A DNA stretch of 32,217 nucleotides from positions 1 to 32,217 of the forward strand of contig NZ_AKJF01000027.1 in the NCBI RefSeq assembly GCF_000282475.1. Reading direction: 5' to 3'. The first letter of the stretch is position 1, and the number at the start of each line of letters is the position of its first letter. A model generated the notes under the pieces. It worked only from the letters and a program-made list of their open reading frames with translations. It searched no databases and was not told where the DNA came from. This document shows, piece after piece, positions 62 through 29,779 of the stretch. Both the position numbers and the translations under genes were made by a program. This DNA comes from Pseudomonas sp. GM78. GTDB lineage: Bacteria > Pseudomonadota > Gammaproteobacteria > Pseudomonadales > Pseudomonadaceae.

Positions 62-1705
62 TTAAACCAAAGCGCTACGTCTTTTCAGCTCATGGTTCAG
101 AATGAAATCGTTCTCGGAATAATCCACCGGGCAATCGATAACGTGCACACCTGGCTCACTGATGCAGCGCTGCAGTAGCGGCAAGAAGCCTTCGGCGCTT
201 TCCACCCGATGGCCCTTGGCACCATAGCTTCGCGCATACATGACGAAATCCGGGTTGCCGTAGTCCAGCCCAAAATCAGTGAACCCCATGTTGGACTGCT
301 TCCAACGGATCATGCCGTAGCCATCATCGCGTAGGATGATGACCGTCAGGTTCATCTTCAAACGTACGGCGGTTTCCAGCTCCTGGCTATTCATCATGAA
401 GCCTCCGTCACCGCACACAGCTACCACAGGACGATCCGGATAGACCAAATGTGAAGCCATCGCCGAAGGCAGGCCCGCACCCATCGTTGCCAAGGCATTG
501 TCTAACAGTACGGTGTTGGGTTTATGTGCCTTGTAGTTGCGCGCGAACCAGATTTTGTAGATGCCGTTATCCAGAGCCACGATGCCTTCGGAGGGCATGG
601 CACGACGCACGTCGGCGACAAAGCGCTGCGGGTAGATCGGGAAACGGTTGTCGTCCGCCCCCTCGATCACTTGGGCCTCGTTGGATTCACGGATCGTCAT
701 AAGGCGGGTGAAGTCCCAGTGTGAAGTGTCATTCAAGGACTCGCCGATCTGCCAAACAGCATTGGCGATATCGCCGATCACTTCGACCTGTGGGAAGTAC
801 ACCGGATCGACCTCGGCGGAGCGGAAGTTGATGTGGATGACTTCGGTGCCGCCACGGACCATGAAAAATGGCGGTTTCTCAATCACGTCGTGGCCAATGT
901 TTACGATCAGATCAGCTGCCTCGACGGCACGGTGCACGAAGTCGCCGGAAGACAGTGCGGCATTGCCAAGGAAGCGTGGATGACGCTCATCTACCACGCC
1001 TTTGCCCATCTGAGTGGTGACAAAAGGGATGCCGGTCTTGTCGATCAGTTGCTTGAGTACCTTGGCAGTCATCTTGCGATTGGCGCCGGCACCAATCACG
1101 AGAATTGGGCTACGGGCTGTCTGCAATTTCTCGACAGCGGCCTCGATGACCTTGTGTTCGGCCAGTGGGCGACGATGCAGGCTCGGAGGAATTGGCCGGC
1201 TTTCGGTCTGCTCCGCGGCGATGTCCTCGGGAAGTTCAAGATGAACCGCTCCGGGCTTTTCTTCCTCAGCAAGGCGGAAAGCTTCACGCACACGCGAGGG
1301 AATGTTGTCAGCGGACGCCAACTGGTGGGTGTACTTGGTCAGCGGTTGCATCATCCCAACAACATCAAGAATCTGGAAACGGCCCTGCTTGGACTTTTTG
1401 ATTGGCTTCTGCCCGGTAATCATGAGCATTGGCATTCCACCCAAGTAGGCATAGGCGCCAGCAGTGACCAGGTTCGTAGCGCCAGGGCCAAGGGTCGATA
1501 AGCTGACTCCCGTTTTTCCGGTTAACCGGCCATAGGTTGCCGCCATGAAACCAGCCGATTGCTCATGTCGAGTGAGAACGAGCCGGATGTTGGAGCGCCT
1601 GAGTGATTCAAGTAAATCCAGGTTCTCTTCACCAGGAATCCCGAACACGAACTCTACGCCCTCATTCTCGAGGCACTGCACTACGACGTCTGAAGCCTTG
1701 AGCAT
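62..1705 (-). CDS. Acetolactate synthase-like ThDP-dependent enzyme
   Basis: A 547-residue thiamine-diphosphate enzyme of the acetolactate synthase/pyruvate oxidase family. The start at 1705 is chosen because AGAGGAGAG lies 4 bases before it; an upstream ATG at 1747 has nothing comparable. The N-terminal ThDP domain carries the activating glutamate E48 (RHEQSAG) and LGPGATNL. A central domain follows, then the C-terminal pyrophosphate domain with the metal-binding GDGG at residues 432-435. The family condenses two pyruvates to acetolactate, or handles related 2-oxo acids. There is no small regulatory subunit beside it, as in catabolic AlsS-type enzymes. The downstream gene starts like gabD, so a decarboxylase plus dehydrogenase unit acting on another 2-oxo acid is an alternative. 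Substrate not determined. Confidence 0.8.
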   Translation of the reverse strand: MLKASDVVVQCLENEGVEFVFGIPGEENLDLLESLRRSNIRLVLTRHEQSAGFMAATYGRLTGKTGVSLSTLGPGATNLVTAGAYAYLGGMPMLMITGQKPIKKSKQGRFQILDVVGMMQPLTKYTHQLASADNIPSRVREAFRLAEEEKPGAVHLELPEDIAAEQTESRPIPPSLHRRPLAEHKVIEAAVEKLQTARSPILVIGAGANRKMTAKVLKQLIDKTGIPFVTTQMGKGVVDERHPRFLGNAALSSGDFVHRAVEAADLIVNIGHDVIEKPPFFMVRGGTEVIHINFRSAEVDPVYFPQVEVIGDIANAVWQIGESLNDTSHWDFTRLMTIRESNEAQVIEGADDNRFPIYPQRFVADVRRAMPSEGIVALDNGIYKIWFARNYKAHKPNTVLLDNALATMGAGLPSAMASHLVYPDRPVVAVCGDGGFMMNSQELETAVRLKMNLTVIILRDDGYGMIRWKQSNMGFTDFGLDYGNPDFVMYARSYGAKGHRVESAEGFLPLLQRCISEPGVHVIDCPVDYSENDFILNHELKRRSALV

Positions 1706-1790
1706 TTCACTCTCCTCTAAAATCATGTATCCGCGCTTGAGGTGCAACCTTGGACAATTCGCTTACGATGGATATTCAGAAACCAAAACA

Positions 1791-5707: not shown

Positions 5708-7168
5708 TTACAGCCGCACGCAGACGTTGCGCAGTTCGGTGTAGAACTCAAGCGAATGCACGCCCCCCTCACGGCCGATACCCGACTGCTTGGCACCGCC
5801 GAAAGCGGTACGCAGGTCGCGCAGAAACCACGAGTTGATCCAGCAAACACCCACGTCCAGTGCACTGCCCAGACGATGAGCGACCTGCAGGTTGCTAGTC
5901 CACACGCTGGCAGCCAGGCCATAGGGTGTGTCGTTAGCCAGGCGGACGACTTCTTCTTCGGTATCAAAGGGGGCGATGTGGCAAACCGGACCGAAAATTT
6001 CCTCGCGTACCACGGCCGAGGTTTCGGCAAGGCCGGTCCAGATCGTCGGCTCGAACCAGGCGCCTTCGGCCAGGTGCTCCGGTACCTGCGCAATGCCACC
6101 GCCGTGGACCACGGTTGCACCATCGGCGACAGCCTGACGGCAGTAAGAGAGAATTTTTTCGCGGTGACCGAGCGAGATGACCGGCCCCATGGTGCTGTCG
6201 TGCTGGTTCGGATCACCCACTTTGATGCCTTCGGCGTGGGCCTTGAACGCAGCGACAAAACGCTCGAACAGCGGACGTTGCACGTAGATGCGCTCGGTCC
6301 CCAGGCAGACCTGGCCACTGTTCTCGAACACGGCGCGCCCCAATCCTTTGACGGCTTTTTCCAGGTCCGCATCGGCGAAAACAATACCGGCGTTCTTGCC
6401 GCCCAGTTCCAGCGATACCGGGCGGATACCCTTGGCTGCGGCCTTCATGATGATCTCGCCCGTGCCGGTTTCACCGGTGAAGGTGACACCATTGACCTCA
6501 GGGTGAGCGGTGAGGAAGGCACCGGCCGAGTCCCCGCCGAAACCATGCACCACGTTGTACACACCCGGTGGCACGCCGGCTTCATTCATGACTTCGGCGA
6601 GCAGAGTGGCGGTGGCCGGAGTCTCTTCGGAGGGTTTGACCACGACAGTATTGCCACAGGCCAGGGCCGGCCCAACCTTCCAGGTCATCAGCAACAGCGG
6701 CAGATTCCAGGGACAAACAACAGCGATGACGCCACGTGGTGCTCGCACGCTGTAGTTCACCGCCTTGCCACCGTCAGGGGTGTCCATCACGAAGCTTTCA
6801 GTCGGCACATTCTTGATCAGGTCGGCGAACACCTTGAAGTTGGCCGCCCCACGGGGAATGTCCAAGTGCCCGGCGAGTGCGCGGGGTTTGCCGGTGTCGG
6901 CCACTTCCGCAGCCACAAACTCTTCATGGCGACGTTCGATGCCCTCCGCCACTTTGTGCAACAAGGCCGTTCGCTGGGCGACAGTCATGCTGCCCCAAGG
7001 GCCTTTCAATGCTGCTTGCGCAGCTCGCACGGCGGCGTCGACCTCAGCCTTGCCGGCCTCGTGCACCAAGCCGATCAGGCTGTTATCGGCTGGGTTGCGG
7101 TTTTCGAAGGTACGGGTGCTACTCACCCATTCACCATTGATGAAATGGCGGAATTCTTTAGCAGGCAT
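5708..7168 (-). CDS. dmpC: 2-hydroxymuconate-6-semialdehyde dehydrogenase
   Basis: 486-residue NAD-dependent aldehyde dehydrogenase, the length of XylG/DmpC. It oxidises 2-hydroxymuconate semialdehyde to 2-hydroxymuconate, the tautomerase substrate. Visible features are the active-site segment VSLELGG with E254, the nucleophile C288 in SGQVCLG, and the C-terminal GGAKQSGIGREGG loop. Close relatives act on 2-aminomuconate semialdehyde, but the hydratase, decarboxylase and tautomerase partners favour the hydroxy substrate. It begins 18 bases after the DhbB-like stop, with AAGGAAC upstream of the ATG. Confidence 0.92.
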   Translation of the reverse strand: MPAKEFRHFINGEWVSSTRTFENRNPADNSLIGLVHEAGKAEVDAAVRAAQAALKGPWGSMTVAQRTALLHKVAEGIERRHEEFVAAEVADTGKPRALAGHLDIPRGAANFKVFADLIKNVPTESFVMDTPDGGKAVNYSVRAPRGVIAVVCPWNLPLLLMTWKVGPALACGNTVVVKPSEETPATATLLAEVMNEAGVPPGVYNVVHGFGGDSAGAFLTAHPEVNGVTFTGETGTGEIIMKAAAKGIRPVSLELGGKNAGIVFADADLEKAVKGLGRAVFENSGQVCLGTERIYVQRPLFERFVAAFKAHAEGIKVGDPNQHDSTMGPVISLGHREKILSYCRQAVADGATVVHGGGIAQVPEHLAEGAWFEPTIWTGLAETSAVVREEIFGPVCHIAPFDTEEEVVRLANDTPYGLAASVWTSNLQVAHRLGSALDVGVCWINSWFLRDLRTAFGGAKQSGIGREGGVHSLEFYTELRNVCVRL

Positions 7169-7186
7169 AAGGTGTTCCTTCTTTTT

Positions 7187-7891
7187 CTAGTTGGCTGGAG
7201 CGCTGGCTTCGGGATCACCCGCCGTCAGGTATTCCCACATACGTTCGTAAATTCGGCCGCTGGTGACAGCCCGTCGCGCGCAGGCCTGTGGGTCGAGTAC
7301 CGGCCCTTGGGTGGCAAGACCTGCGCTGTGCAGTTGCAACTCAATCCGCGCGGCGTCTTCCAGATACCAGGTCAGCGTCAACGCTTCGATCAGTGACGCG
7401 CCAACGACGATGGCGCCGTTGCCACGCATGACCAGCGCATTCCCCTGCCCTAATTGATTGGCCAAGGCGCTGGCTTGCTCGTCGCTGCGCAGCAGTTGCG
7501 GGTCGTCCCACAGCGGGATTGGCTGCTGAAAGTAGCTGCCCATGCCATGGCGCGGTTGAGGTGTGAGCCTTGCGCATGACAGGGTCATGACCTGGGCAGG
7601 CATGCTTCGGATCACGGCGTGGACGTCTGGGCGCCGACGATATATTTGCTGGTGGATACGAACCTCACCCAGCACGCCGTCGGGCAACTCACCTTTGACC
7701 GGTACCACGATTCCTGGCTCGCCCGGCTGGATCAAACCCATCGGTTGCGGGGCGCAGACCAGAAAGTGCTCCTCATCCAGACGCAGGCTGCAGTGCCCGT
7801 AGGCATGCACCAGACCCGCACGGGCCAAAGCGCGCGCAGCCACGCGCACCTGCGACTGCTCCTCGCGGCCGGGTAATGGCAAGCGACTCAC
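7187..7891 (-). CDS. dhbB: Ring-fission product decarboxylase, DhbB/CmtD type (class II aldolase fold)
   Basis: Class II aldolase/adducin-fold protein. Together with the dioxygenase it matches DhbB of the 2,3-dihydroxybenzoate pathway, related to CmtD, which decarboxylates the carboxylated ring-fission product to 2-hydroxymuconate semialdehyde. I prefer the GTG start at 7891: its GTGA overlaps the dioxygenase TGA, and GGAG lies about 8 bases upstream. ATG at 7927 would add 12 residues. The fold is visible in GHCSLRL and the RGNGAIVVG segment. The usual zinc ligands are missing: the H-x-H motif reads R95-S96-M97 and the third histidine is N158 (GTG numbering). The upstream Glu-xxx-His pair (E76, H80) is kept. 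Either this subfamily works without that metal site or it binds metal differently. Confidence 0.8.
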   Translation of the reverse strand: MSRLPLPGREEQSQVRVAARALARAGLVHAYGHCSLRLDEEHFLVCAPQPMGLIQPGEPGIVVPVKGELPDGVLGEVRIHQQIYRRRPDVHAVIRSMPAQVMTLSCARLTPQPRHGMGSYFQQPIPLWDDPQLLRSDEQASALANQLGQGNALVMRGNGAIVVGASLIEALTLTWYLEDAARIELQLHSAGLATQGPVLDPQACARRAVTSGRIYERMWEYLTAGDPEASAPAN

Positions 7892-8751
7892 GATTTGAAC
7901 TCCGGAATGTCTGGCTTCGCACCCCATGCGCAGAATCCCGCACCCTCCGCCGGAAACTGCCGAGGTTGGTGGGTTGCATCATTTTCTGGAGAGATCAGGC
8001 TGACCCCTGTCGAGTATTCGTATGTCATGCCGTCAGGTCCCTCGAAATAAAGGAACATCGCGCCCGAGGTGGGGTGGCGGCCCGGACCAAAGAGGATGCG
8101 TATGCCCCGCTCAACCAGGAAGTAATAGGCACGCATCAAGTCATCGACGGACTCCACCTGGTGGTTGATGTGTTGCACGCCGGGATGGGACGAAGGGAAC
8201 AAGGCGATCTTGTGATGGATTTCGTCGATACGCAGCAGTGGCGCCTCGCCAATTCGGTCACTAACCCTGGCGTTTGCCAGCTGAGTCCAGAACAGTTCAT
8301 CACGCCGGGCATTCATGGTGCGCAAGCCAATGTGGCTGAAACCGGTGATGCCGGCATCGCGACTAGGGAAATAGCGTCGCCCGCTTGCCTGGGGACGCAA
8401 GACCAGCTCGATGTTGTTGCCGCTGGGATCCTTGAAGCGAATGAAGTCGTCTACATAACGCACTTCAGCGTCTGCACGCGACCCATGCTGCACGCTGTAT
8501 TCATTACGCTCCAGCAAGACTGCCGCGTCCTCGAGGTCTTGGGCAGTCCTTACTTCGAATGCCGTCGTGGTTTCTTGCGGGTCACCCTCGTAGTAGCAAA
8601 GCGTATGGTCGCGACTGTCCGATCGGAAGTAGACCGCACCATTGGCTTCGCGGGCGATCTGCAATCCGAGAACCTGGGTGGCGTAGCGACGTGCCTCGTC
8701 CAGATTCGCGGTTCCCAGCCGAACGTATCGAATGTCATGCAGGTTGATCAT
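7888..8751 (-). CDS. dhbA: 2,3-dihydroxybenzoate 3,4-dioxygenase-type extradiol dioxygenase
   Basis: 287-residue type I extradiol dioxygenase with two VOC repeats. The C-terminal repeat has the full iron-binding set: H140 (GFSHIG), H194 (VQHIN) and E245 (YEYS), plus H226 and Y235 at second-sphere positions. The overall type matches CmtC (2,3-dihydroxy-p-cumate 3,4-dioxygenase) and DhbA of Pseudomonas reinekei MT1, whose product still carries the carboxylate. The next gene encodes the matching decarboxylase, overlapping by 4 bases. ATG 8751 is chosen because it gives the normal VOC start (MINLHDIRYVRLG); the frame extends to 8820 without support. Substrate by context: 2,3-dihydroxybenzoate; a 4-alkyl derivative is less likely since no hydrolase gene is present. 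Confidence 0.85.
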   Translation of the reverse strand: MINLHDIRYVRLGTANLDEARRYATQVLGLQIAREANGAVYFRSDSRDHTLCYYEGDPQETTTAFEVRTAQDLEDAAVLLERNEYSVQHGSRADAEVRYVDDFIRFKDPSGNNIELVLRPQASGRRYFPSRDAGITGFSHIGLRTMNARRDELFWTQLANARVSDRIGEAPLLRIDEIHHKIALFPSSHPGVQHINHQVESVDDLMRAYYFLVERGIRILFGPGRHPTSGAMFLYFEGPDGMTYEYSTGVSLISPENDATHQPRQFPAEGAGFCAWGAKPDIPEFKS

Positions 8752-8838
8752 GAGGGATGTCCTCTTATTTATAGTTGTCTGGGACTCATCTTCCCGTCGC
8801 CCGATGGATAAAAGAAGCAAATATTAGTTATTCGCACT

Positions 8839-8859
8839 ATCTGAAATCGTTATACAGAT
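8839..8859. promoter_or_regulatory. Dyad upstream of dhbA (possible operator)
   Basis: A 21-base segment has 5-base inverted arms (ATCTG / CAGAT) separated by 11 bases, about 90 bases before the dhbA start and inside the only non-coding stretch that can hold the operon promoter. I could not find a convincing -35/-10 pair. The short arms make chance possible. Confidence 0.25.
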
Positions 8860-8888
8860 GCCGACATCAAACTCCGATTTTCAAACGC

Positions 8889-8920
8889 AAAAAAAAGCCC
8901 CGTATCAGTAGATACGGGGC
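8889..8920 (-). terminator. Rho-independent terminator after the MFS gene
   Basis: A perfect 10-bp stem (8897-8906 with 8911-8920) with a 4-base loop is followed on the minus strand by eight T residues. It lies 24 bases after the MFS stop codon and separates the porin/MFS unit from the dhb operon promoter. Confidence 0.93.
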
Positions 8921-8943
8921 GGTATTAGGACCAACGAATCAGT

Positions 8944-10179
8944 TCACCCGATTGCCTCCTTGGCAATGTCTGCATTGGCGGACTGCGTACTCACCTCGCT
9001 CACTGTTTTGTTCCTTGGCATGGAGATCACAAACAATGCGGAGATGACGTAGAACCCGGCGCACACCATCAGTCCCGCCGCCAGGCTATAAAAGCTGGCA
9101 ATGCCACTGAGCAGCACGGGGGCAAAAGCCGCCAGGCCTCGGCCCACGTTGAAACAGAAGCCCGCCCCAAGCGTTCGCACCCGGATGGGGTACATCTCGC
9201 TGAAGTAAGAGCCGAACAACCCGGCGAATACCATGAAAAATGCGTACCCCGCCCCTATCCAGATCAGCGATTGGGTCTGGGTGGTATAGACATAGACCAG
9301 CGCCATCATGGATGTCAGCAACAGCGATATGACAATCGTAAGCCGCTTGCCAATGCGGTCGGCGATGAAGCCGAATACGTTCAGGCCAAAGAAATTCCCG
9401 AGATGCAATACCGCCATAAAGCTGGTCATCGACGCCAGACTCAAGCCACGGTCCTGTATCAGGTAGGTGGGCAGCCACGTGCTGACGCCCCACGAACCAA
9501 GCAACGCAAAGCTGGCTGCAAGAGACCCCAGCAGGGTGTAACGAAGTAACTCAGGCGAAAAAATCTCCTTGACCGATATCCGCTGCGCAGCAGTGCCCTG
9601 AGTAACGCGTTGAGCTTTCCAGGCCGGCGATTCCGGAATCAGAAAATACACATAAATAATCGGCAGTATCACCGAGGCGCCGGACACAAAAAACATCAAA
9701 CGCCATTCCGGCAGCATGAACTTTGCCGCCAGGGCAGCGGCGATGGCGCCAACCGGGAAGGCACTGATCACGAAGGATATGGCCCTGGCGCGCTGCTTGG
9801 GCGGCCACGTTTCAACGATATAAGCCGAGAGGATTGTCCATACCCCACCGAGCCCAAGACCCGAGATAAACCTCAGGCCCATCAGTACGTAGAGATCATG
9901 GGCGAATGCAAAGACGCACGTCAGTGCACCGAAGATCGCCAGCGATGCAATCAGTGCCTTGCGCCGGCCGAAGTTGTCGGAGTACCAGCCTGTGGCAACT
10001 CCGCTGACACCAATACCCAACAATGTAGCGCTAGCCAGCGCACCCACCTCGTGGAGGCTGAAACCCAGGTCCTGGCGGATAACGGGCAGTGCGAGCGTTA
10101 GCAGAATGATCTCCATTGCATCAAAAAGGTACGCAATGAATCCACCGATCAGTACGTGCCACTTGGATATTCCAGTCAT
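8944..10179 (-). CDS. MFS transporter, aromatic acid/metabolite:H+ symporter-like
   Basis: 411-residue inner-membrane carrier with about 12 hydrophobic segments. The loop between helices 2 and 3 carries the MFS signature (GWYSDNFGRRKALI). The N-terminal DAMEIILLTLALP resembles the conserved helix-1 motif of the aromatic acid:H+ symporter branch (DGFDxxxxxxxxP type), with DAME in place of DGFD. AGGTGA lies about 6 bases before the ATG. It follows the porin gene, with the terminator right after it, so the two are probably one uptake unit. By position it could serve either ring-cleavage pathway; co-direction with the 11399-14906 operon favours that one. Substrate not identified. Confidence 0.87.
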   Translation of the reverse strand: MTGISKWHVLIGGFIAYLFDAMEIILLTLALPVIRQDLGFSLHEVGALASATLLGIGVSGVATGWYSDNFGRRKALIASLAIFGALTCVFAFAHDLYVLMGLRFISGLGLGGVWTILSAYIVETWPPKQRARAISFVISAFPVGAIAAALAAKFMLPEWRLMFFVSGASVILPIIYVYFLIPESPAWKAQRVTQGTAAQRISVKEIFSPELLRYTLLGSLAASFALLGSWGVSTWLPTYLIQDRGLSLASMTSFMAVLHLGNFFGLNVFGFIADRIGKRLTIVISLLLTSMMALVYVYTTQTQSLIWIGAGYAFFMVFAGLFGSYFSEMYPIRVRTLGAGFCFNVGRGLAAFAPVLLSGIASFYSLAAGLMVCAGFYVISALFVISMPRNKTVSEVSTQSANADIAKEAIG

Positions 10180-10265
10180 GGTTTCACCTGATTTTAATTA
10201 TTGGACAGTGATATTCGTTCGATGGGCCGCCACGTTCTTATGACTTCCCATCAAGGACGCGACGT

Positions 10266-11225
10266 TCAGAATCGGTAAACAGCCTGCAGCCAGATGCGAT
10301 CACCTTCAGCTCGGTTCTCTACCATCGTCTCGTGCTGCCATTTCATGACAAACCCGATTGCCGGGGTCTGGTATTTGATCGCGGGGCCTATAGCGGCGAC
10401 TTGACCACGGTTACCATCCAAGTAGGTCTGGCCATTCTTTTCATCGTCGCTGAGCTGCTTGTACAAGTAGCCGTTCACGCCTACCTGCCATTCGCGGGTG
10501 ATGTTGTAGCCGATGTTGTAGTCGGCGTTGAACTCACGGCCAGAGCGATAGTTGGTTTCGGAGTTCTCGCCATTGATCATGTAGATGAGCTTGGCGCTGA
10601 CCTCCAGATTCTCCAGCGGATAGGCGGTAAAGGAATACCAGGGCCCGTAAGCCCACGTGTTTCGACCGGGGTTGAAAAGGCGGTCCTTGTCATAGGACCC
10701 GATGGGCGCAAACACATCCAGACCGAGTAACTGGTGGTACCGCGGAGAGCTCCACCCCAATACAAAAGGAACCACCGTCAGATCGCCGGCACCTTCTTGA
10801 TGGTCGCTGCGATGAATCCGACCGGCAGGCGTATCGACATCAAAACTGATGTCACCCTTGATCAAGGGCAAGGCAAGGCGACTGGCCAGTTTGGCTCCCA
10901 ATATCGTGAAGTCCTGATAGACATAATCCACTCGAATCGACAGTGCCTGAACATTAAGGTCGAAGTTGTGGATGCCTTGTTTCTTGTCGCCATCGCCGTC
11001 CAGCGTCTTGTTCGCACTGTAGTCGGATAAGTAAAAGAACTCGGTAAAGCCTGGCGGTGGCATCTTTCCCGCACCGACCGTATTCACACCCAGTGGGTAT
11101 GAACTGCCGCCGCCCTCTGTTGCCTGGGCCAGCGGAACGCAAAGAAGGCCGACGCAGAGGGAACAGATCCAGGCGCTTGTCGCGCGCAGAGCATTTGATC
11201 TTGGTGTGCTCATCTCATGTACCAT
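10266..11225 (-). CDS. Outer-membrane transporter, phenol-degradation MetA/SphA type
   Basis: About 319 residues with a Sec signal peptide (hydrophobic WICSLCVGLLCVPLAQA, probable cleavage AQA/TEGG) and a C-terminal phenylalanine (AVYRF) typical of outer-membrane beta-barrels. Alternating polar and aromatic strands fill the rest. The family (phenol MetA-pathway outer-membrane proteins, SphA-like) is commonly found in aromatic catabolic clusters and is thought to take up hydrophobic substrates. Two in-frame ATGs (11225, 11213) are possible, and neither has a good ribosome-binding site. It is separated from the FAH gene by about 170 bases containing a hairpin, so it likely has its own promoter and is co-transcribed with the MFS gene. 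Confidence 0.8.
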   Translation of the reverse strand: MVHEMSTPRSNALRATSAWICSLCVGLLCVPLAQATEGGGSSYPLGVNTVGAGKMPPPGFTEFFYLSDYSANKTLDGDGDKKQGIHNFDLNVQALSIRVDYVYQDFTILGAKLASRLALPLIKGDISFDVDTPAGRIHRSDHQEGAGDLTVVPFVLGWSSPRYHQLLGLDVFAPIGSYDKDRLFNPGRNTWAYGPWYSFTAYPLENLEVSAKLIYMINGENSETNYRSGREFNADYNIGYNITREWQVGVNGYLYKQLSDDEKNGQTYLDGNRGQVAAIGPAIKYQTPAIGFVMKWQHETMVENRAEGDRIWLQAVYRF

Positions 11226-11348
11226 TATTATTTTTGTATGATGGAGGAGAGTTTTTTTTGCAGCTTTCAGTGCTGGCGTTACTGAAAGGCGACTGGCAAA
11301 TTTCAGGCGCAGCGAAGCACACCGTCATTTGTCAGGACGCTGCAAACA

Positions 11349-11363
11349 GTTGAGTTATTCAAC
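11349..11363. promoter_or_regulatory. 15-bp dyad of T-N11-A form upstream of the porin
   Basis: GTTGAGTTATTCAAC has 5-base inverted arms and fits the T-N11-A pattern of LysR-type regulator boxes. It lies about 124 bases before the porin start, in the gap after the FAH terminator hairpin. The match is to a loose consensus and no LysR gene is in the window. Confidence 0.3.
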
Positions 11364-11386
11364 GGCCGGGCATTGATTGCCCGGCC
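11364..11386 (-). terminator. GC-rich hairpin after the FAH gene
   Basis: A perfect 9-bp stem (GGCCGGGCA / TGCCCGGCC) with a 5-base loop lies 12 bases after the FAH stop. It lacks a strong T-tract, so it may slow or only partly end transcription before the porin gene. Confidence 0.6.
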
Positions 11387-11398
11387 CTCAGCAAGGTG

Positions 11399-12352
11399 TT
11401 ACCGAATAGTGGTTTCCAGCTCGCCGAGCCCTTCGATGCAGACTTTCAATACATCGCCGCGGTCCAGGAATGTGTGGCTTTCCATGCCCACGCCCGCCGG
11501 TGTTCCCGTCAACAGAACATCACCGGGAAACAGATCGATGGTCTGGCTCAGATAGGAAATCTGCTCTGCAATGCCGTACATATGGTTGCGGGTATTGGAA
11601 TCCTGTACCCACACACCATTCCTCGACAGCTTGATATCCAGGTTCTCAGGATCTTTGACAAATTGTGCCGGCGTCAGGTACGGGCCCAGCGGGCAAGAAC
11701 CCGTGAAGCATTTGTGGCCAATCCAGTCGAAGCGAAACGGCGAGCTGGGGTCGACTTGCTCGCGACGCAGTCGATCACGTGCGGACAGGTCATTGGCGCA
11801 GGTGTAACCCGCCACATAGTCGAGCGCCTCTTCAATGGAGACACGCGATGCTCGCTTGCCAATCACCACCGCCAACTCGGCTTCCCAATCGAGCATGCGG
11901 ACACCTGCCGGAAAGTCTACCGCTTGCTTGTGTGCGACCAGACTACCGCGGCCAGGCTTGATGAAATGCCAGGGAGCAATGCCCTCGCTGCGCGGATCCA
12001 GCGACAGTTTCATGTTGAACGCACGGGCCATGGCTTCGACATGGTCTCGATAGTTTGCTCCCGCGCAATAGATCGTGCCTGGACGTTCCAGAAAAGGAGC
12101 AAAGTGCAATGTGGCTAGATCAAGCCGTTGCGATTCATAGAGCGCTGGCGCTTCAAACACTGCCATTGCAAGCTTTTGCAGCTGTGGATTGGACGTCTCC
12201 CAGCGCTCGAGCAATGCATCGACGGAAACTGCCGGCAATTCAAGGCCGGTCTTGGCCACAAGCTGACCAAGATCATAGGCGTATTCGCCAACCAGCAGGC
12301 CGGTAGCGTTTGACTGGACATCCGTCCGATAGGTGAAAAGCTGATACTTCAT
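11399..12352 (-). CDS. Fumarylacetoacetate hydrolase family protein
   Basis: 317-residue FAH-fold enzyme. The metal-binding acidic motif is present (LDWEAELAVVIG, with the downstream aspartate in CANDLSARD), together with the family C-terminal segment PGDVLLTGTPAGVG. FAH enzymes cleave C-C bonds in 1,3-diketo acids, or isomerise and decarboxylate ring-fission products. Start 12352 is supported by family length and the N-terminus MKYQLFTY; GGTGA lies upstream. It closes the operon that also encodes an extradiol dioxygenase, like the DntD/DntG pair of the 2,4-dinitrotoluene pathway. It probably acts on the ring-fission product. The exact reaction is inferred, not shown. Confidence 0.85.
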   Translation of the reverse strand: MKYQLFTYRTDVQSNATGLLVGEYAYDLGQLVAKTGLELPAVSVDALLERWETSNPQLQKLAMAVFEAPALYESQRLDLATLHFAPFLERPGTIYCAGANYRDHVEAMARAFNMKLSLDPRSEGIAPWHFIKPGRGSLVAHKQAVDFPAGVRMLDWEAELAVVIGKRASRVSIEEALDYVAGYTCANDLSARDRLRREQVDPSSPFRFDWIGHKCFTGSCPLGPYLTPAQFVKDPENLDIKLSRNGVWVQDSNTRNHMYGIAEQISYLSQTIDLFPGDVLLTGTPAGVGMESHTFLDRGDVLKVCIEGLGELETTIR

Positions 12353-12362
12353 GGGGTCACCA

Positions 12363-12740
12363 TCACAGGAGCGAAAAGCGTTGGTTGGAAAAGCTGACGT
12401 GGAGCGTGAGGCCGCCTTCCATGAGCAGCCACTTGCGCACATCCACGTCATAAACGCCGTGGGCGATAAAGGGATCTGACTGGACGATGCGCAGTGCTTC
12501 GGCATGATCCGCCGCACGCAAAATGCTCATACCCCCCAGCTGACCGGGAAGGGTCTGATCCGAGACAAAGGGCCCGGAAGCGAACAACTCGCCGCGTTGC
12601 TGCGCGAGAATCGCCCACTTCAAGTGGGCGTCCAGCAGCTCTGGTACGCGGGTCAGGTCCCGTGGCGTACGCATGACCACGAACAGCGGCTTGTTCAACA
12701 TCCCTGCCAACAGTTCCTTGGTCGTAGAGCTATCACTCAT
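12363..12740 (-). CDS. YciI-like small protein
   Basis: 125 residues with the YciI/dimeric alpha-beta barrel pattern: an N-terminal strand (LFVVMRTP), a helix with His (AHLKWA), GELFASGPF, GGMSILRA, and a C-terminal DPF..GVYDVDVRKW. YciI relatives include chloromuconolactone dehalogenase/isomerase-like enzymes (TftG) and many proteins of unknown role in aromatic clusters. Two adjacent ATGs (12743, 12740) are possible. The gene overlaps the dioxygenase stop by about 8 bases and ends 10 bases before the FAH gene, so it is translated with them. It may isomerise or dehydrate a pathway intermediate; this is inferred only from context. Confidence 0.8.
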   Translation of the reverse strand: MSDSSTTKELLAGMLNKPLFVVMRTPRDLTRVPELLDAHLKWAILAQQRGELFASGPFVSDQTLPGQLGGMSILRAADHAEALRIVQSDPFIAHGVYDVDVRKWLLMEGGLTLHVSFSNQRFSLL

Positions 12741-13665
12741 CATGCGCCGCCTCGAAGTTTTGAATGAAGGCTTCAGGCGGTGGATTGGTTGCCCACACGG
12801 CGATCACGTCTTTGGGCTCGCCGTCGATAGCCAGCCATTCGCTGTCGTCTTCGGGAATGACATCGATGTCCCAGAAGTATTCGACCATGCTGTCCCAAGG
12901 GTCGCGGATGTAGTGAAAGTAGTTGGAGCCGGCCACGTGTCGACCCAGGCCAAATGCGCTTGCATAACCCAGGCTCATCAGGTGTTGAGCGCCCAACTGG
13001 ATCTCATCGATATCCATCACTTCGAAACTGAGATGATGTAGGCCACTATGGCTGCTCTTTGCCAGGCCCAACACATGGTGATCACCACCACAGCCACAGC
13101 GCAGAAAGGCGATCTTGTCCCCCGCGCGATCAGAGACTTTCATCCCCAGCACCCGGGTATAGAAGTCGATCGAACGATCCACATCAGGGGTGAACTTGAT
13201 CAAGTGGCCCAGGCGCAAAGGCGTCACTCGGCGCAACTTCGAGGCCGGTGTGCAGCCGCGCTGACCGATGCGACGGTAACGGCCCGGGGTGTTCAACTCT
13301 GGCGTCGGCAAAGTCGCTACCGGCATGGAATCGGCGTCGGTGACGTGAACCCAATCTCCGGACGGGTCACGAAACCACAATCCGTCCTGCCCGATATCAA
13401 ACGGTGCCGGATGGATGACCACACCGTGGTAGCTGAGGTTTTCCCGAATCGTCTGCAGGCCCTCAGCATCGGTACCAAACGAGATATAACTCAGGCGCTT
13501 TGTGGTGCCGGGCATCAGTCGCACTTGATCCTGGGCTCGCCCTTTACAGCGCAACACCAAATGATCACCTGCCATGCGGGCTTCGAGCCCGACAGCTTCG
13601 TAGAAGGAGCGACCTACTTCCAGATCCGGAACAGTCATGCCTACGTGTTGTAGAGAACGAATCAT
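12733..13665 (-). CDS. Extradiol ring-cleavage dioxygenase (VOC family)
   Basis: 310-residue type I extradiol dioxygenase with two VOC repeats. The iron-binding set is intact: H154 (LGHLIKF), H211 (LHHLSFE) and E262 (SMVEYFW), with H243 and Y249 nearby. It is clearly different from the dhbA product and carries a longer linker between the repeats and an extended C-terminus (about 45 residues after E262). AAAGGAGC lies 8 bases before the ATG. It sits between NIPSNAP and YciI genes in a tightly packed operon with a FAH-family hydrolase. That pairing resembles trihydroxytoluene-type (DntD/DntG) chemistry more than classical catechol cleavage. Substrate unknown. Confidence 0.88.
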   Translation of the reverse strand: MIRSLQHVGMTVPDLEVGRSFYEAVGLEARMAGDHLVLRCKGRAQDQVRLMPGTTKRLSYISFGTDAEGLQTIRENLSYHGVVIHPAPFDIGQDGLWFRDPSGDWVHVTDADSMPVATLPTPELNTPGRYRRIGQRGCTPASKLRRVTPLRLGHLIKFTPDVDRSIDFYTRVLGMKVSDRAGDKIAFLRCGCGGDHHVLGLAKSSHSGLHHLSFEVMDIDEIQLGAQHLMSLGYASAFGLGRHVAGSNYFHYIRDPWDSMVEYFWDIDVIPEDDSEWLAIDGEPKDVIAVWATNPPPEAFIQNFEAAHDE

Positions 13666-13680
13666 CTTGGACGCTCCTTT

Positions 13681-13995
13681 TTAACGAATAGGGGAAAAGG
13701 GTGCGGCGCTCAAAAGTTCCACCTGTTGGGCAACCACCAGATGGCCGTTCTTGCCTAGGAACGTACGCCATCTTGGATCACTGGACAGCGCCGCTCGGCG
13801 TTGGGCACGGTCATCAAAGCTGGAATATCCCCACAACTGAATGACCCGATTGATGTCCCCCGTTTCCGGCTTGAAATAACCGATCAGGTTGCCCAGTGCC
13901 TCGCCCTGAAGTGGGAGTCCCTCCTCCTCGTAAGCACGTAGGAATTCGTGCAAGGCGCCAGGCTTGAGTTGATAGGTACGTTGTTCAATCAGCAT
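13681..13995 (-). CDS. NIPSNAP family protein
   Basis: 104-residue single ferredoxin-like (dimeric alpha-beta barrel) domain with NIPSNAP-type features: an opening IEQRTYQLKPG, the middle IGYFKPETGDINRVIQLWGYSSFDDRAQRR, and a WRTF segment. The molecular role of these proteins is not established; they often sit in catabolic operons. The gene overlaps the upstream dehydrogenase by 7 bases and ends 15 bases before the dioxygenase start. It is clearly part of the same transcript. It could be a small accessory or isomerase-like component. Confidence 0.8.
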   Translation of the reverse strand: MLIEQRTYQLKPGALHEFLRAYEEEGLPLQGEALGNLIGYFKPETGDINRVIQLWGYSSFDDRAQRRAALSSDPRWRTFLGKNGHLVVAQQVELLSAAPFSPIR

Positions 13996-14906
13996 GTTGT
14001 TTTCTCTTTTTTGGAAGGTGCCTGGGAGTCGGCTTTGGAGTCGGCTTCGATCAACTTGATCACTGCCGAGATATCTTCTTCACCGATGCCTTCTTCAATA
14101 GCCCTTAGAAAGTAGGGCTTGGCGGAATTGAACAAAGGCGCGGCGCTACCGAGTTCCTCGGACAGCTCACTGGCCATGTCGATGTACTTTTCCAGCGTGG
14201 CAAAAGGTCCTGGTGCCGGCAGGAAATGACGATCAGCCATCATCGGTGCTCTTGCGCTGAACATCGTTGAACCACCCGCGCTTTGGCGAATCACCTCAAC
14301 CACCTGCTGTGCGCTGAACCCCGCTTTCACGCCGAGGTTTAGCGCCTCAGCTGCGGCCAAGGTGTGAATAGTCACCAGATAGTTGGCGATCAATTTCATC
14401 GCGACTGCGCACCCAAACCCACCGATGTGGAACTGGATGTCGGCGATCGCATCGAGCACTGGCTTGCAGTGCTCCACCAAGTCAGGATCACCACCCAGAA
14501 ACAAGGAAGCCTTGCGTTGGGAAACCATTGATGGAGTACCACTGACCTCCGCTTCCAACACCCGCGCACCACGTTGCCCGATACGCTGAGCCATTCGTTG
14601 CTTGAAGGCTTTGTGATAGGTGCCGATCTCGATGAGCGTGTGCTGCGGCCCTATGGACTGAAGCAGGCCATCAGGCCCCTCCATGATTTCCATGTGGGCC
14701 ACTTCGCTGGGCAGGCAAGTGAGGATGAAGTTTGATTGCGCCGCTACGGCGGCAGGGCTTTCGAGCGCGATGCCGCCCTGACGGATGAAGGCCTCGCGAT
14801 CTCGACGTCGGTAACCGACAACGCGAAATCCGGCCGCAAGCAGGTTGGTTGCGATAGGAAGGCCAAGCTGGCCGATTCCCACCATACCGATGGTTATCAC
14901 AGGCAT
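13989..14906 (-). CDS. NAD(P)-dependent dehydrogenase, 3-hydroxyisobutyrate dehydrogenase family
   Basis: 305-residue beta-hydroxyacid dehydrogenase. An N-terminal Rossmann motif (MVGIGQLGLPIA), the substrate-binding EVSGTPS segment and the catalytic lysine K171 (AVAMKLIAN) are present, and the C-terminus ends in a lysine/serine-rich tail. The GIGQLG in place of the usual GLGxMG, and EVSGTP in place of DAPVSGG, place it away from the well-known HIBADH or tartronate semialdehyde reductase groups. It is the first gene of the second ring-cleavage operon, with AGAGG upstream. It may oxidise a hydroxy-acid intermediate or reduce an aldehyde product. It is not the same as the ltnD gene at 28874-29779. 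Confidence 0.85.
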   Translation of the reverse strand: MPVITIGMVGIGQLGLPIATNLLAAGFRVVGYRRRDREAFIRQGGIALESPAAVAAQSNFILTCLPSEVAHMEIMEGPDGLLQSIGPQHTLIEIGTYHKAFKQRMAQRIGQRGARVLEAEVSGTPSMVSQRKASLFLGGDPDLVEHCKPVLDAIADIQFHIGGFGCAVAMKLIANYLVTIHTLAAAEALNLGVKAGFSAQQVVEVIRQSAGGSTMFSARAPMMADRHFLPAPGPFATLEKYIDMASELSEELGSAAPLFNSAKPYFLRAIEEGIGEEDISAVIKLIEADSKADSQAPSKKEKTTC

Positions 14907-15208
14907 TTTTCGCCTCTCTTGTTGTTGTTCTTTTATGCAAAGCTTGAAGCTCGGCTAGGCGCTAACCTAGGCGCAGCCGGGTTTTGGAGCAAACAGCTCG
15001 AGTTATGAATAAGTAGAAGCTAGCGTTATACAAAGGGGGCGAAGTGGGCGGGATGCCTCAGCTAAAAGACTGGGAGTCCATGCAGAATGCGAGAGGTCGG
15101 TAGTCGATCTGAGGCTATTGATGATTTGATGACGAAGCAGAATTGAGAAAATGCAGCACGCGGCAGCTCTCTTCACCGTGCTCACCCACCAAAATGAGAT
15201 GAATTCGA
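14907..15208. other. Non-coding upstream region of the second ring-cleavage operon
   Basis: No gene found. It must contain the promoter for the minus-strand operon starting at 14906. The only pattern seen is a 7-base direct repeat TAGGCGC at 14956-14962 and 14968-14974 (12-base period), inside a weak CGGCT/AGCCG dyad. Confidence 0.4.
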
Positions 15209-15243
15209 CCTATAGGGGCTGACGCAGGCTGCGATACTTTTTT
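15209..15243. repeat. REP-like element
   Basis: The segment reading CCTATAGGGGCTGACGCAGG and onward into GCTGCGATACTTTT closely resembles the Pseudomonas intergenic REP unit (CCTGTAGGAGCTGC..AGGCTGCGATCTTTT type, from memory). It lies just after the decayed succinyltransferase gene, a typical 3'-end location. The assignment is by remembered similarity, without a search. Confidence 0.5.
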
Positions 15244-15253
15244 CGTAAGCTAT

Positions 15254-15695
15254 TTAAGCCGCTGATTGTTGCAAAGCAGGCAGTGCCAGACTCACCGCCC
15301 GCACCGAAGCCTCTGCCTTGGCGATTTGAGCGTCAACAATCAGCCTACCGGCCTGCAACTCGTGCCGCGGCCGCAGTAATCCGGCAATCGACAAGCTGAC
15401 GGTTATGAATCAAGTGTGTCGCTGCTAGCTCGCCCGGCGTGCCAATACTCAGTTGCTGTATCTGGCTATCGCGCACGGCACGAATATTCCCGGTGGCGCA
15501 CTCGATCAGTGGACCACTGTCAAAGATATCGATGTAGTCACGATGCTCAAAACCTTCCGCTTTGAGCATACCCAGTGCCGGTTCGTGTTTGGATGAACCC
15601 TTCCGAAGACCTTTCGTGCCCCCTCCGGCTACAAGCAGGTTGGCAAAGGAAGTTTTGGCCGGCATATCGTCAGATGTTGCAGGGTGGACAATCAT
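15254..15695 (-). pseudogene. Arginine/ornithine N-succinyltransferase remnant
   Basis: The first residues (MIVHPATSDDMPA) and the last third (AEGFEHRDYIDIFDSG, then GTPGELAATHLIHNRQL, then DCRITAA) match the two ends of arginine N-succinyltransferase (AstA/AruF type), which is normally about 340 residues. Most of the middle is missing: only about 20 poorly matching residues join the ends. Near 15350 one extra base breaks the frame; past it the frame continues AGRLIVDAQIAKAE and ends at TAA 15254. Its ATG overlaps the CtlX stop by 4 bases, so it was once translated with ctlX. The enzyme would have started the arginine succinyltransferase pathway; this copy cannot. Confidence 0.75.
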
Positions 15696-16630
15696 CGCGC
15701 GTGTTCTTGGGCGAACGAGTGCTTGGGCAGGAACACCTCTGCCAGCATGCAGCGCGCGCTGCCGCCACCAATGCGCTCGATGGTGTCAATGTTCACAGGC
15801 AATGGCGTGGTGTGGGTTTCGATCAAGCGACGCTGATCGGCGTCAAGCGATTGCCAGGCTGTGCGTGACATCACCAAAAGCGGTTCGCCCGCCGCGTTGT
15901 GCACTTCCAGCATGTTGCCAGCAAAGGACTCCAACTGCGCCCAGTTCAAGGCAACGACCTGTTTGCCGCTGGCCTCAAGGCGCGAGAGCAGCGCCGCGCG
16001 CTCACCCAAATGGGGCACGGACGCCAGGCAAGCCACCGCCACCCGGGTACCGACACTCATCATCACATTGGTGTGATAAATCGGCACGCCTCGGCGGTCC
16101 ACCGCGTTGAACGCACACAGTTGATAACCCAAATGGTTGACCAACTGATCCAGGGCCTGAGCATGGGTGCGTGTGGAATACCCGGCATAGCAAATCTGCT
16201 GCTGCCGATCGAGGACCATACTGCCGGTGCCCTCTAGGAAAACCTCATGCTCTTCGAGGCTGGACAGGTCCAGCACCTGCTCGACCCGGTATTCGTCCAG
16301 CAACCCGTCGAGTACACCTTTATCTCGCTCCAGACGCCGGTTGTGACCTTGCATTGGGTACAACACCAAGGTGCCGTCCGGGTGGCTGCTCCACCAGTTG
16401 TTGGGGAAGATCGAATCCGGGGTATGCGGCGCTTCGCGATCGTTGTGCACCAGAACCTTGACGCCGTGCCGTCGTAACGCGGCGACATAGCCATCGAACT
16501 CGGCAAGGGCCTTGAGTTGTACGTCTTCAGCAACTGTTGCCGGACGCTGGAAACGGTTGTTCGCCGCTGTGTCCTGATTGAAGGAGAAACGTGTCGGGCG
16601 AATCATCAATACGGTATTGGTGGTTTGCAT
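15692..16630 (-). CDS. ctlX: CtlX-type guanidino/ureido hydrolase (amidinotransferase fold)
   Basis: 312 residues of the arginine deiminase/amidinotransferase superfamily. Catalytic residues are placed as expected: acidic E133 (FLEGTGS), H186 (IYHTNVMM) and the nucleophile C294 near the C-terminus (GGGSARCMLAEVF). The closest family by appearance is CtlX, proposed to act in citrulline use; arginine- or dimethylarginine-type substrates are alternatives. Start 16630 (MQTTNTVLMIRPTRF) matches the family; an open frame runs on to 16969 across the Lrp terminator and is not coding. No ribosome-binding site is visible, and a dyad lies just upstream. It is followed by the succinyltransferase remnant. 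Confidence 0.8.
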   Translation of the reverse strand: MQTTNTVLMIRPTRFSFNQDTAANNRFQRPATVAEDVQLKALAEFDGYVAALRRHGVKVLVHNDREAPHTPDSIFPNNWWSSHPDGTLVLYPMQGHNRRLERDKGVLDGLLDEYRVEQVLDLSSLEEHEVFLEGTGSMVLDRQQQICYAGYSTRTHAQALDQLVNHLGYQLCAFNAVDRRGVPIYHTNVMMSVGTRVAVACLASVPHLGERAALLSRLEASGKQVVALNWAQLESFAGNMLEVHNAAGEPLLVMSRTAWQSLDADQRRLIETHTTPLPVNIDTIERIGGGSARCMLAEVFLPKHSFAQEHAR

Positions 16631-28873: not shown

Positions 28874-29779
28874 TCAAACGGGCTCTGGCTTAGCAGTCGG
28901 CAATTCGATGCCCGGGAAAATCTTGATCACCGCTGAGTCGTCCTCACGGCCGAATCCGGCACTGGATGCCTGCATGAACATTTGGTGTGCGGTAGCTGAC
29001 AGCGGCAGCGGGAATTTGCTGGCACGGGCGGTATCCAGCACCAGGCCCAGGTCCTTGACAAAAATGTCGACTGCGGACAACGGCGTGTAGTCGGCCTTGA
29101 GAATGTGCGGCACGCGATTTTCGAACATCCAGGAATTGCCGGCGCTGTGGGTGATCACTTCATATAGGGCATCGGCATCAACCCCTTCACGCAGGCCCAA
29201 CGCCATGGCTTCGGCAGAAGCGGCAATATGCACCCCGGCCAGCAGTTGGTTGATGATTTTGACCTTCGAACCCAGGCCGTGGGCGTCACCCAGGCGATAC
29301 ACCTTGCCGGCCATGCCCGCCAGTATCGATTCGACCTTGGCATAGGCGTCGGCCGGGCCCGAGGTCATCATGGTCATTTCGCCGGCGGCAGCCTTGGCGG
29401 CACCACCGGAAATCGGAGCATCCAGATACAGCAGGCCCAGCGCAGCCAGCCGCTGGCCAAGATCCACGGCATAAGTCGGAGCGACCGTGGCGCAACCGAT
29501 CACCAGACTACCCGGGCGCAGTGCAGCCACGGCACCACCCTCACCGAACAGCACCGTTTCGGTTTGCTCGGCATTCACCACTACGGTAATGATCACCTCG
29601 CACTGCGCAGCCATGTTCGAAGGTGACGGACAAGCCACACCGCCCTCCCCAGCGAACTGCTCTGTTACGGCAGCACGCACATCACAGGCATGCACATTGA
29701 AACCGCTGCGCAACAACGAGCGGGCAATGCCCAGCCCCATTGCGCCCAGACCGACTACACCGACATTCTTGTTATTCAT
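28874..29779 (-). CDS. ltnD: L-threonate dehydrogenase (HIBADH family)
   Basis: 301-residue beta-hydroxyacid dehydrogenase. Rossmann motif GLGAMGLGIA, substrate loop DAPISGGAAKA, and catalytic K174 in GSKVKIINQLL. In operons with otnK, otnC and otnI this family oxidises L-threonate to 2-oxo-tetronate. A DAPISGG loop is normal for the family, unlike the paralogue at 13989-14906. It is the first gene of the operon (GGAG about 7 bases before the ATG). Closely related family members use 3-hydroxyisobutyrate or tartronate semialdehyde, so threonate is assigned from the operon. Confidence 0.9.
   Translation of the reverse strand: MNNKNVGVVGLGAMGLGIARSLLRSGFNVHACDVRAAVTEQFAGEGGVACPSPSNMAAQCEVIITVVVNAEQTETVLFGEGGAVAALRPGSLVIGCATVAPTYAVDLGQRLAALGLLYLDAPISGGAAKAAAGEMTMMTSGPADAYAKVESILAGMAGKVYRLGDAHGLGSKVKIINQLLAGVHIAASAEAMALGLREGVDADALYEVITHSAGNSWMFENRVPHILKADYTPLSAVDIFVKDLGLVLDTARASKFPLPLSATAHQMFMQASSAGFGREDDSAVIKIFPGIELPTAKPEPV

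Follow-up and report, generated by a model that had tools for sequence, protein, structure and literature searches.

What do the five tightly packed genes beside a dhb-type cluster in Pseudomonas sp. GM78 degrade, and do they form a pathway of their own? The genes are carried on the minus strand at 11399-14906 of the window, by which we mean the whole stretch of 32,217 nucleotides analysed (contig NZ_AKJF01000027.1), and each has a Pfam match above the gathering score. We refer to them as HIB (a dehydrogenase), NIP (a NIPSNAP protein), EDO (an extradiol dioxygenase), YCI (a YCII-family protein) and FAH (a hydrolase of the fumarylacetoacetate hydrolase family). The positions and Pfam matches confirm a preliminary description of the window, which had read this stretch as five packed genes of these families and had called the system uncharacterised. 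The latter view also holds, in that no study of the five-gene set appeared among the matches listed in the full-text literature (open-licence papers); the module, though uncharacterised, sits in the published sequence of plasmid pA81. Judged by comparison across genomes, the gene set is a conserved module that travels between lineages, and it is a real pathway, uncharacterised as to what gets degraded. We consider it probable that this is a self-contained extradiol module whose substrate is most likely a hydroxybenzoate of the salicylate family, of catechol or benzenetriol type.

In a sample of 398 Pseudomonadaceae genomes, orthologues of EDO (at least 70% identity), YCI (at least 55%) and FAH (at least 64%) were found only in the same three genomes (G000, G142 and G218), and the co-occurrence check that the preliminary description had proposed therefore shows the gene set to be conserved. 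EDO relatives of 35-44% identity occurred in 12 further genomes of this sample. Across a wider range, 35 loci from a pattern-based scan (one genome per species) and four plasmid loci, less two alphaproteobacterial loci (L054 and L055) in which an EDO of 49-52% identity stands without the other four genes, gave a set of 37 loci, where presence was scored by tblastn at a threshold of at least 45% identity and at least 80% coverage. HIB, EDO, YCI and FAH were each present in 34 of the 37 loci, the exceptions being pA81, where FAH is split into two open reading frames (ORFs), L042, which meets a contig end, and L057, where the EDO match falls in two pieces; all five genes were present in 27. The four genes lie on a single strand, in a single order and within 5 kb in 30 of the 34 four-gene loci, and the remaining four are Variovorax loci in which FAH-HIB is inverted beside NIP-EDO-YCI. 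In these Variovorax loci (L033, L034, L038 and L044), the divergent halves stand about 1.25 kb apart, with a LysR-cluster frame between them, and a large amidohydrolase and a flavin hydroxylase are each found nearby in three of the four.

The module EDOs, from the window and 36 loci, are set apart from the other rows by a branch with a support of 100/99, recovered in 200 of 200 bootstrap trees; the tree included the distant row L075, added ungrouped, and left out DhbA as too distant, the DhbA-like protein being at most 26% identical to every row of the set. At the nucleotide level, a module-bearing stretch of 5380 bases is 99.96% identical between chromosome 1 of Paraburkholderia xenovorans LB400 (L040 7324-12703) and Pusillimonas minor (L041 7324-12703), and plasmid pA81 (L017 11324-16038) has 4.7 kb in common with LB400 at 99.7%. 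These near-identical stretches therefore point to a very recent transfer.

The catalytic positions of EDO were placed through alignment to BphC, whose residue roles we assume to apply here. The iron ligands (H154, H211 and E262) and the acid-base set (H197, H243 and Y252) are invariant in 39 of 39 EDO rows, in agreement with the intact His/His/Glu iron site described beforehand; L057, with its two-piece match, has no row in this alignment, and L042 is cut by the contig end. The structural model of EDO, with a predicted local distance difference test (pLDDT) score of 87.2, matches 3b59 and other solved extradiol dioxygenases. The iron site, the catalytic His and Tyr and the fold are thus those of a type I (VOC) extradiol dioxygenase, and both residues and fold support the prediction that EDO cleaves a ring next to two adjacent hydroxyls.

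FAH has a distinctive lid. Three residues beyond the lid His, every one of the 36 module FAH rows has Ala, whereas the lid Glu is kept by the FAHs at 13 of 13 compared loci of relatives (L006 being left out of this comparison) and by one fumarylpyruvate-hydrolase-like protein. The lid His-x-x-Glu is presumably a motif of acylpyruvate hydrolases. The FAA-domain proteins of the dhb part that were among those scanned are the 2-oxo-3-hexenedioate decarboxylase and its neighbour.

YCI belongs to the YCII superfamily by both its Pfam domain and its fold. Its model (pLDDT 83.8) matches HI0828, TftG (5-chloro-2-hydroxyhydroquinone dehydrochlorinase) and ClcF (5-chloromuconolactone isomerase/dehalogenase); the last two are the nearest solved structures with a named function, at 17-25% identity in the structural-match alignments, and the genes of the window imply no halogen chemistry. 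Two YCI residues, H40 and D90, show no variation among the 37 aligned rows; they are candidates for the His-Asp dyad that passages of PMC7641849 report for TftG. In another Pseudomonas genome (G155, L075 2506-10827), a distant YCII protein is clustered with EDO-like (32%) and FAH-like (33%) frames, together with TRAP transporter genes, a SnoaL-like gene and an aldehyde-dehydrogenase-like frame; by its gene content this cluster would lend weak support to a link between YCII, extradiol and FAH proteins.

HIB matched eight NCBIfam families and fell under every cut-off, the highest score being 140.9 bits where 350 are needed; its score for the HIBADH family was 116.5 against 291.6, short of equivalog level. 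K171 and N175, which probably correspond to the catalytic pair (Lys and Asn) of the beta-hydroxyacid dehydrogenase superfamily, are invariant in 32 of 32 HIB rows (six rows were dropped, the tblastn match running beyond a stop codon). A second beta-hydroxyacid dehydrogenase with the same Pfam domains is encoded at 28874-29779 (minus strand) of the window in a different gene group, with a protein of sugar-binding/nucleotide-binding domains, a GntP permease and a xylose-isomerase-like TIM-barrel protein.

NIP is dispensable and lies outside the core. It is absent or fragmentary in 8 of the 37 loci and lies 3 kb away from the module in L039; in whole-genome searches of four NIP-poor genomes, G415 and G417 had no homologue at E <= 1e-10, and G407 and G413 had only partial matches of 43-45%. 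Cofactor-free quinol monooxygenases offer an analogy by which NIPSNAP might be the missing hydroxylase; it is unlikely to perform a core step, because it is absent or cut short in those eight loci.

We then asked which other genes accompany the module. A Rieske system like salicylate 5-hydroxylase (S5H) was found within the fetched stretch of 10 of the 37 loci, nine of which also held an ABC transporter permease marker. The S5H marker, the large subunit from L046, matches the solved structure 7c8z at 809 bits, and the other large subunits are 67-89% identical to it. A flavin hydroxylase like salicylate 1-hydroxylase (S1H) lies within the stretch of five loci, all from Pseudomonas, where it is accompanied by genes for catechol 1,2-dioxygenase and muconate cycloisomerase; the marker, taken from L058, scores 809 bits against the solved salicylate hydroxylase 5evy, and four of the five enzymes are 56-57% identical to this marker. 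Salicylate hydroxylase genes thus stand beside the module in 15 of the 37 fetched loci. At the whole-genome level, S5H (E <= 1e-200) was present in 15 of 16 betaproteobacterial carriers (16 of the 22 from the scan were searched) against 12 of 299 other Burkholderiales of unchecked carrier status (Fisher p 1.6e-17), and S1H (E <= 1e-60) in 7 of 9 pseudomonad carriers, GM18, GM48 and GM49 being left out, against 39 of 395 non-carriers (Fisher p 5e-6). In Pseudomonas reinekei MT1, the module adjoins a LysR gene whose best solved match is 1uth/1utb (180.8 bits), which we take to be DntR. In summary, salicylate hydroxylases are the clearest genomic correlate of the module among those tested.

If the module acts on a salicylate-family hydroxybenzoate, the porin and the aromatic-acid-type major facilitator superfamily (MFS) carrier encoded next to it would take up the substrate, and EDO, using Fe(II) and O2, would open the ring beside two adjacent hydroxyls. 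YCI, which has the fold of TftG and of muconolactone isomerases, may then convert the ring-opened product in a step without redox change, by isomerisation, elimination or decarboxylation. FAH, a member of a metal-site family without the usual lid Glu, could cleave or decarboxylate a 2,4-dioxo or 2-hydroxydienoate intermediate, HIB may reduce or oxidise the resulting short semialdehyde or beta-hydroxy acid, and NIPSNAP would be accessory. In hosts with adjoining salicylate hydroxylase genes, the module may remove products that are unusable by the main catechol or gentisate routes.

More tentatively, and somewhat less probably than not, this would amount to an unrecognised salicylate-family route, in which a mobile EDO-YCI-FAH-HIB core uses extradiol cleavage to take a di- or trihydroxybenzoate past the known catechol and gentisate routes, after which the YCII enzyme and the lid-altered FAH together perform a new step on the ring-opened acid; the distribution suggests that the module moved as a unit between beta- and gammaproteobacteria. 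Salicylate and the dihydroxybenzoates occur as defence compounds of plants, as parts of siderophores and as pollutants, and the routes by which bacteria use them are regarded as well mapped. An extradiol module that is conserved and tracks salicylate hydroxylases would fill a gap in those route maps, YCII and NIPSNAP, barely characterised families, would gain a testable place in a pathway, and the unassigned genes of pA81 would be explained.

Several observations weigh against a salicylate-family substrate. Neither hydroxylase was found in the fetched stretch of 22 of the 37 loci, and in four loci (L019, L048, L050 and L053) none of the 18 markers was found in the stretch, the genomes of the last three holding S5H elsewhere. 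Both enzymes are missing from the window genome, where the best S1H match scored 23.9 bits over 83 residues and the best S5H match reached 41% over about 213 residues. At the thresholds used, both are also missing from the GM74 genome (G398), and LB400 (G410) holds nothing nearer to S5H than a 42% relative. The statistics may also be flattered: some carriers are closely related (L030/L032 at 99.8%, L048/L050 at 98.6%, and L040/L041 as given above), controls were scored on four to five candidates per genome and carriers on all, which may undercount the controls, and the S1H test with carriers from inside the 398-genome sample only gave 2 of 3 against 39 of 395 (p 0.03). The best NCBIfam match of the LysR protein is BsrA, below its cut-off. 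Finally, a gentisate 1,2-dioxygenase scored over the cut-off in 17 of 25 carriers, and therefore gentisate needs no help there. Since the window genome lacks the salicylate hydroxylases, the substrate is probably imported; a substrate that is imported or made otherwise in hosts without a hydroxylase would fit the porin and MFS genes.

The S5H linkage invites the reading that the module is a second gentisate pathway acting after S5H, with EDO serving as a non-orthologous 1,2-dioxygenase of gentisate or hydroquinone, and eight of the 25 carriers indeed have no gentisate dioxygenase over the cut-off. Those eight, however, also lack S5H at E <= 1e-100, and L039 holds S5H, gentisate dioxygenase and the module at one locus. 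As a canonical gentisate dioxygenase occurs somewhere in the genome of 16 of 16 betaproteobacterial carriers searched and is lacking over the cut-off in 8 of 9 pseudomonad carriers, the module is not simply a disguised gentisate dioxygenase; we consider this reading very improbable and, given the canonical enzyme in most carriers, rejected it as a general one. It is rather unlikely, too, that the module degrades 2,3-dihydroxybenzoate or aids the dhb route by providing a further branch of meta-cleavage. This would account for its location, as dhb is its neighbour here and at six related loci in Pseudomonas, and for the missing hydroxylase, uptake genes being sufficient. Yet a terminator-like site lies between the module unit and dhb, a dhbA orthologue is absent from the fetched stretch of 31 of the 37 loci, and the seven dhb-linked cases form one close clade, so that a single insertion event suffices; none of the five genes is listed in the table of opa genes by which strain PTH10 uses 2,3-dihydroxybenzoate, as given in PMC6362003. 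The terminator-like site and the distribution across loci likewise led us to reject the five genes as an extension of dhb, and they agree with the preliminary description, which had proposed a second ring-cleavage operon distinct from it. The dhb pathway is a direct neighbour that shares type I extradiol chemistry with the module but is probably a separate unit, with different enzymes.

Among described systems, the trihydroxytoluene pathways of MhqA/MhqB (methylhydroquinone, fenitrothion) and DntD/DntG (2,4-dinitrotoluene), likened here by description only, come nearest, in that they also have a two-domain type I extradiol dioxygenase and an FAH-family enzyme. MhqB would be the enzyme of the cleavage step in the fenitrothion route. 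In a (methyl)hydroxyquinol pathway of the MhqB/DntD type, EDO would yield a 2,4,6-trioxo acid, FAH would release pyruvate and a semialdehyde, and HIB would reduce the semialdehyde; a HIB-like enzyme would suit malonate or methylmalonate semialdehyde, and TftG, which is among the structural matches of YCI, by its name acts on a hydroxyquinol. The compounds of the fenitrothion route include 2-methylhydroquinone, trihydroxytoluene and 2,4,6-trioxoheptanoate, as listed in a figure legend of PMC8571283 on the use of fenitrothion. Among the 12 genomes with EDO relatives of 35-44% identity, 11 have an FAH-like frame beside EDO, and the nearest outgroup EDO clade mostly has this Mhq/Dnt-like layout; in the plasmid relative L022, a flavin hydroxylase also adjoins EDO, which looks like the MhqA/MhqB arrangement. 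The likeness to DntD/DntG noted in the preliminary description therefore stands as far as the gene pairing goes, and fails on the lid Glu and on the separate EDO clade; the analogy is only partial because the module FAH lacks the Glu kept beside the nearest EDO relatives. Compared with Mhq/Dnt, the module has also added YCI, HIB and NIP, and its unit is without a flavin or quinol hydroxylase, a ring-hydroxylase-like flavoprotein gene being found elsewhere in 4 of the 37 loci. These differences make a hydroxyquinol pathway an unlikely explanation, and we favour the salicylate-family module.

The hyb cluster (ICEclc-JB2 and pA81), consisting of the S5H genes hybABCD and the ABC uptake genes hybEFGHI, is of interest in this respect, as the pA81 module follows S5H-like and ABC transporter genes. 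According to excerpts of PMC6050381, hybABCD of P. aeruginosa JB2 converts salicylate to gentisate and is adjoined by a gene called mhqB and predicted catabolic enzymes; the same excerpts give the module set no role. We infer that JB2 mhqB and its neighbours are the same genes as the module set, and pA81 appears to have the same arrangement as the JB2 hyb cluster, with the five-gene set. The window genome differs in having no S5H, and pA81 in its split FAH.

The features of the module and its surroundings are given in Table 1. The mechanical ORF of FAH (to 12517, 372 aa) is over-extended, and we placed its start at the Met that gives 317 aa because this matches the orthologue lengths. HIB and NIP overlap by 7 bases, as described beforehand; the overlap of EDO and YCI, given there as about 8 bases, has this length only from the second Met of YCI and is 11 bases from the first. 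NIP and EDO are separated by 15 bases, and YCI and FAH by 10.

Table 1. Features of the module and of the adjoining genes in the window.
Feature	Positions	Strand	Length (aa)	Basis	Remarks
HIB	13989..14906	-	305	Pfam NAD_binding_2 + NAD_binding_11	3-hydroxyisobutyrate/tartronate-semialdehyde-dehydrogenase-like; probable first gene
NIP	13681..13995	-	104	Pfam NIPSNAP	accessory
EDO	12733..13665	-	310	Pfam Glyoxalase	two-domain type I extradiol dioxygenase
YCI	12363..12743	-	126	Pfam YCII	YCII-family protein
FAH	11399..12352	-	317	Pfam FAA_hydrolase	fumarylacetoacetate-hydrolase family, without canonical lid Glu
GC-rich hairpin	11364..11386	-		fold	between FAH and porin; no T tract; absent from list of terminator-like sites
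Porin	10266..11225	-		Pfam	Phenol_MetA_deg family; probably belongs to the unit in pseudomonads
MFS carrier	8944..10179	-		TIGR00895, 196.8 bits (below cut-off 418.55)	nearest to aromatic acid/H+ symport family
Intrinsic terminator-like site	8897..8920	-		terminator scan	10-pair stem + 8 T; between MFS and dhbA
dhbA-like dioxygenase	7888..8820	-		Pfam	first gene of downstream dhb-type unit

The porin and MFS genes that had been described as following FAH are present, and the unit appears to run through both to the site at 8920-8897. The FAH-porin gap is 173 bases and the porin-MFS gap 86 bases, and no terminator-like site was found in either. In each of the 11 pseudomonad loci, FAH is followed by an orthologue of the porin gene; for five of these loci, the fetched stretch contains no dhbA. 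The 8920-8897 stem is the longest among the 10 terminator-like sites found (shuffles expect 8.1 sites), and a similar hairpin and T run lies in the MFS-dhb gap of six of six related loci, the stem in L052 being imperfect and not formed by the fold. As these gaps lack a terminator-like site and a strong one then precedes dhb, HIB-NIP-EDO-YCI-FAH-porin-MFS probably forms one seven-gene transcription unit here, judging from the DNA, with dhb as a neighbour. No ring hydroxylase was found among the genes of this unit by ORFs and Pfam, as the preliminary description had reported for the operon. A promoter scan of 7100-15700 gave zero sigma-70-type sites, where shuffles gave 4.2.

The dhb genes downstream of dhbA score above the cut-offs of 2-hydroxymuconic semialdehyde dehydrogenase, 2-oxo-3-hexenedioate decarboxylase, acetylating acetaldehyde dehydrogenase and 4-hydroxy-2-oxovalerate aldolase. 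After the dhb-type cluster comes a gene for a thiamine pyrophosphate enzyme of the acetolactate synthase type at 62-1747 (minus strand; PRK08322, 921.8 bits), a kind of enzyme missing from the opa gene table given in PMC6362003. On the other side of the module, a 116-aa frame at 15345-15695 (minus strand) matches only the C-terminal part of AstA, arginine N-succinyltransferase (profile positions 231-310 of 337), and may be a remnant of an ast gene; it adjoins an arginine-type gene group with a dimethylarginine-hydrolase-like protein, an AsnC-type regulator and an ABC transporter.

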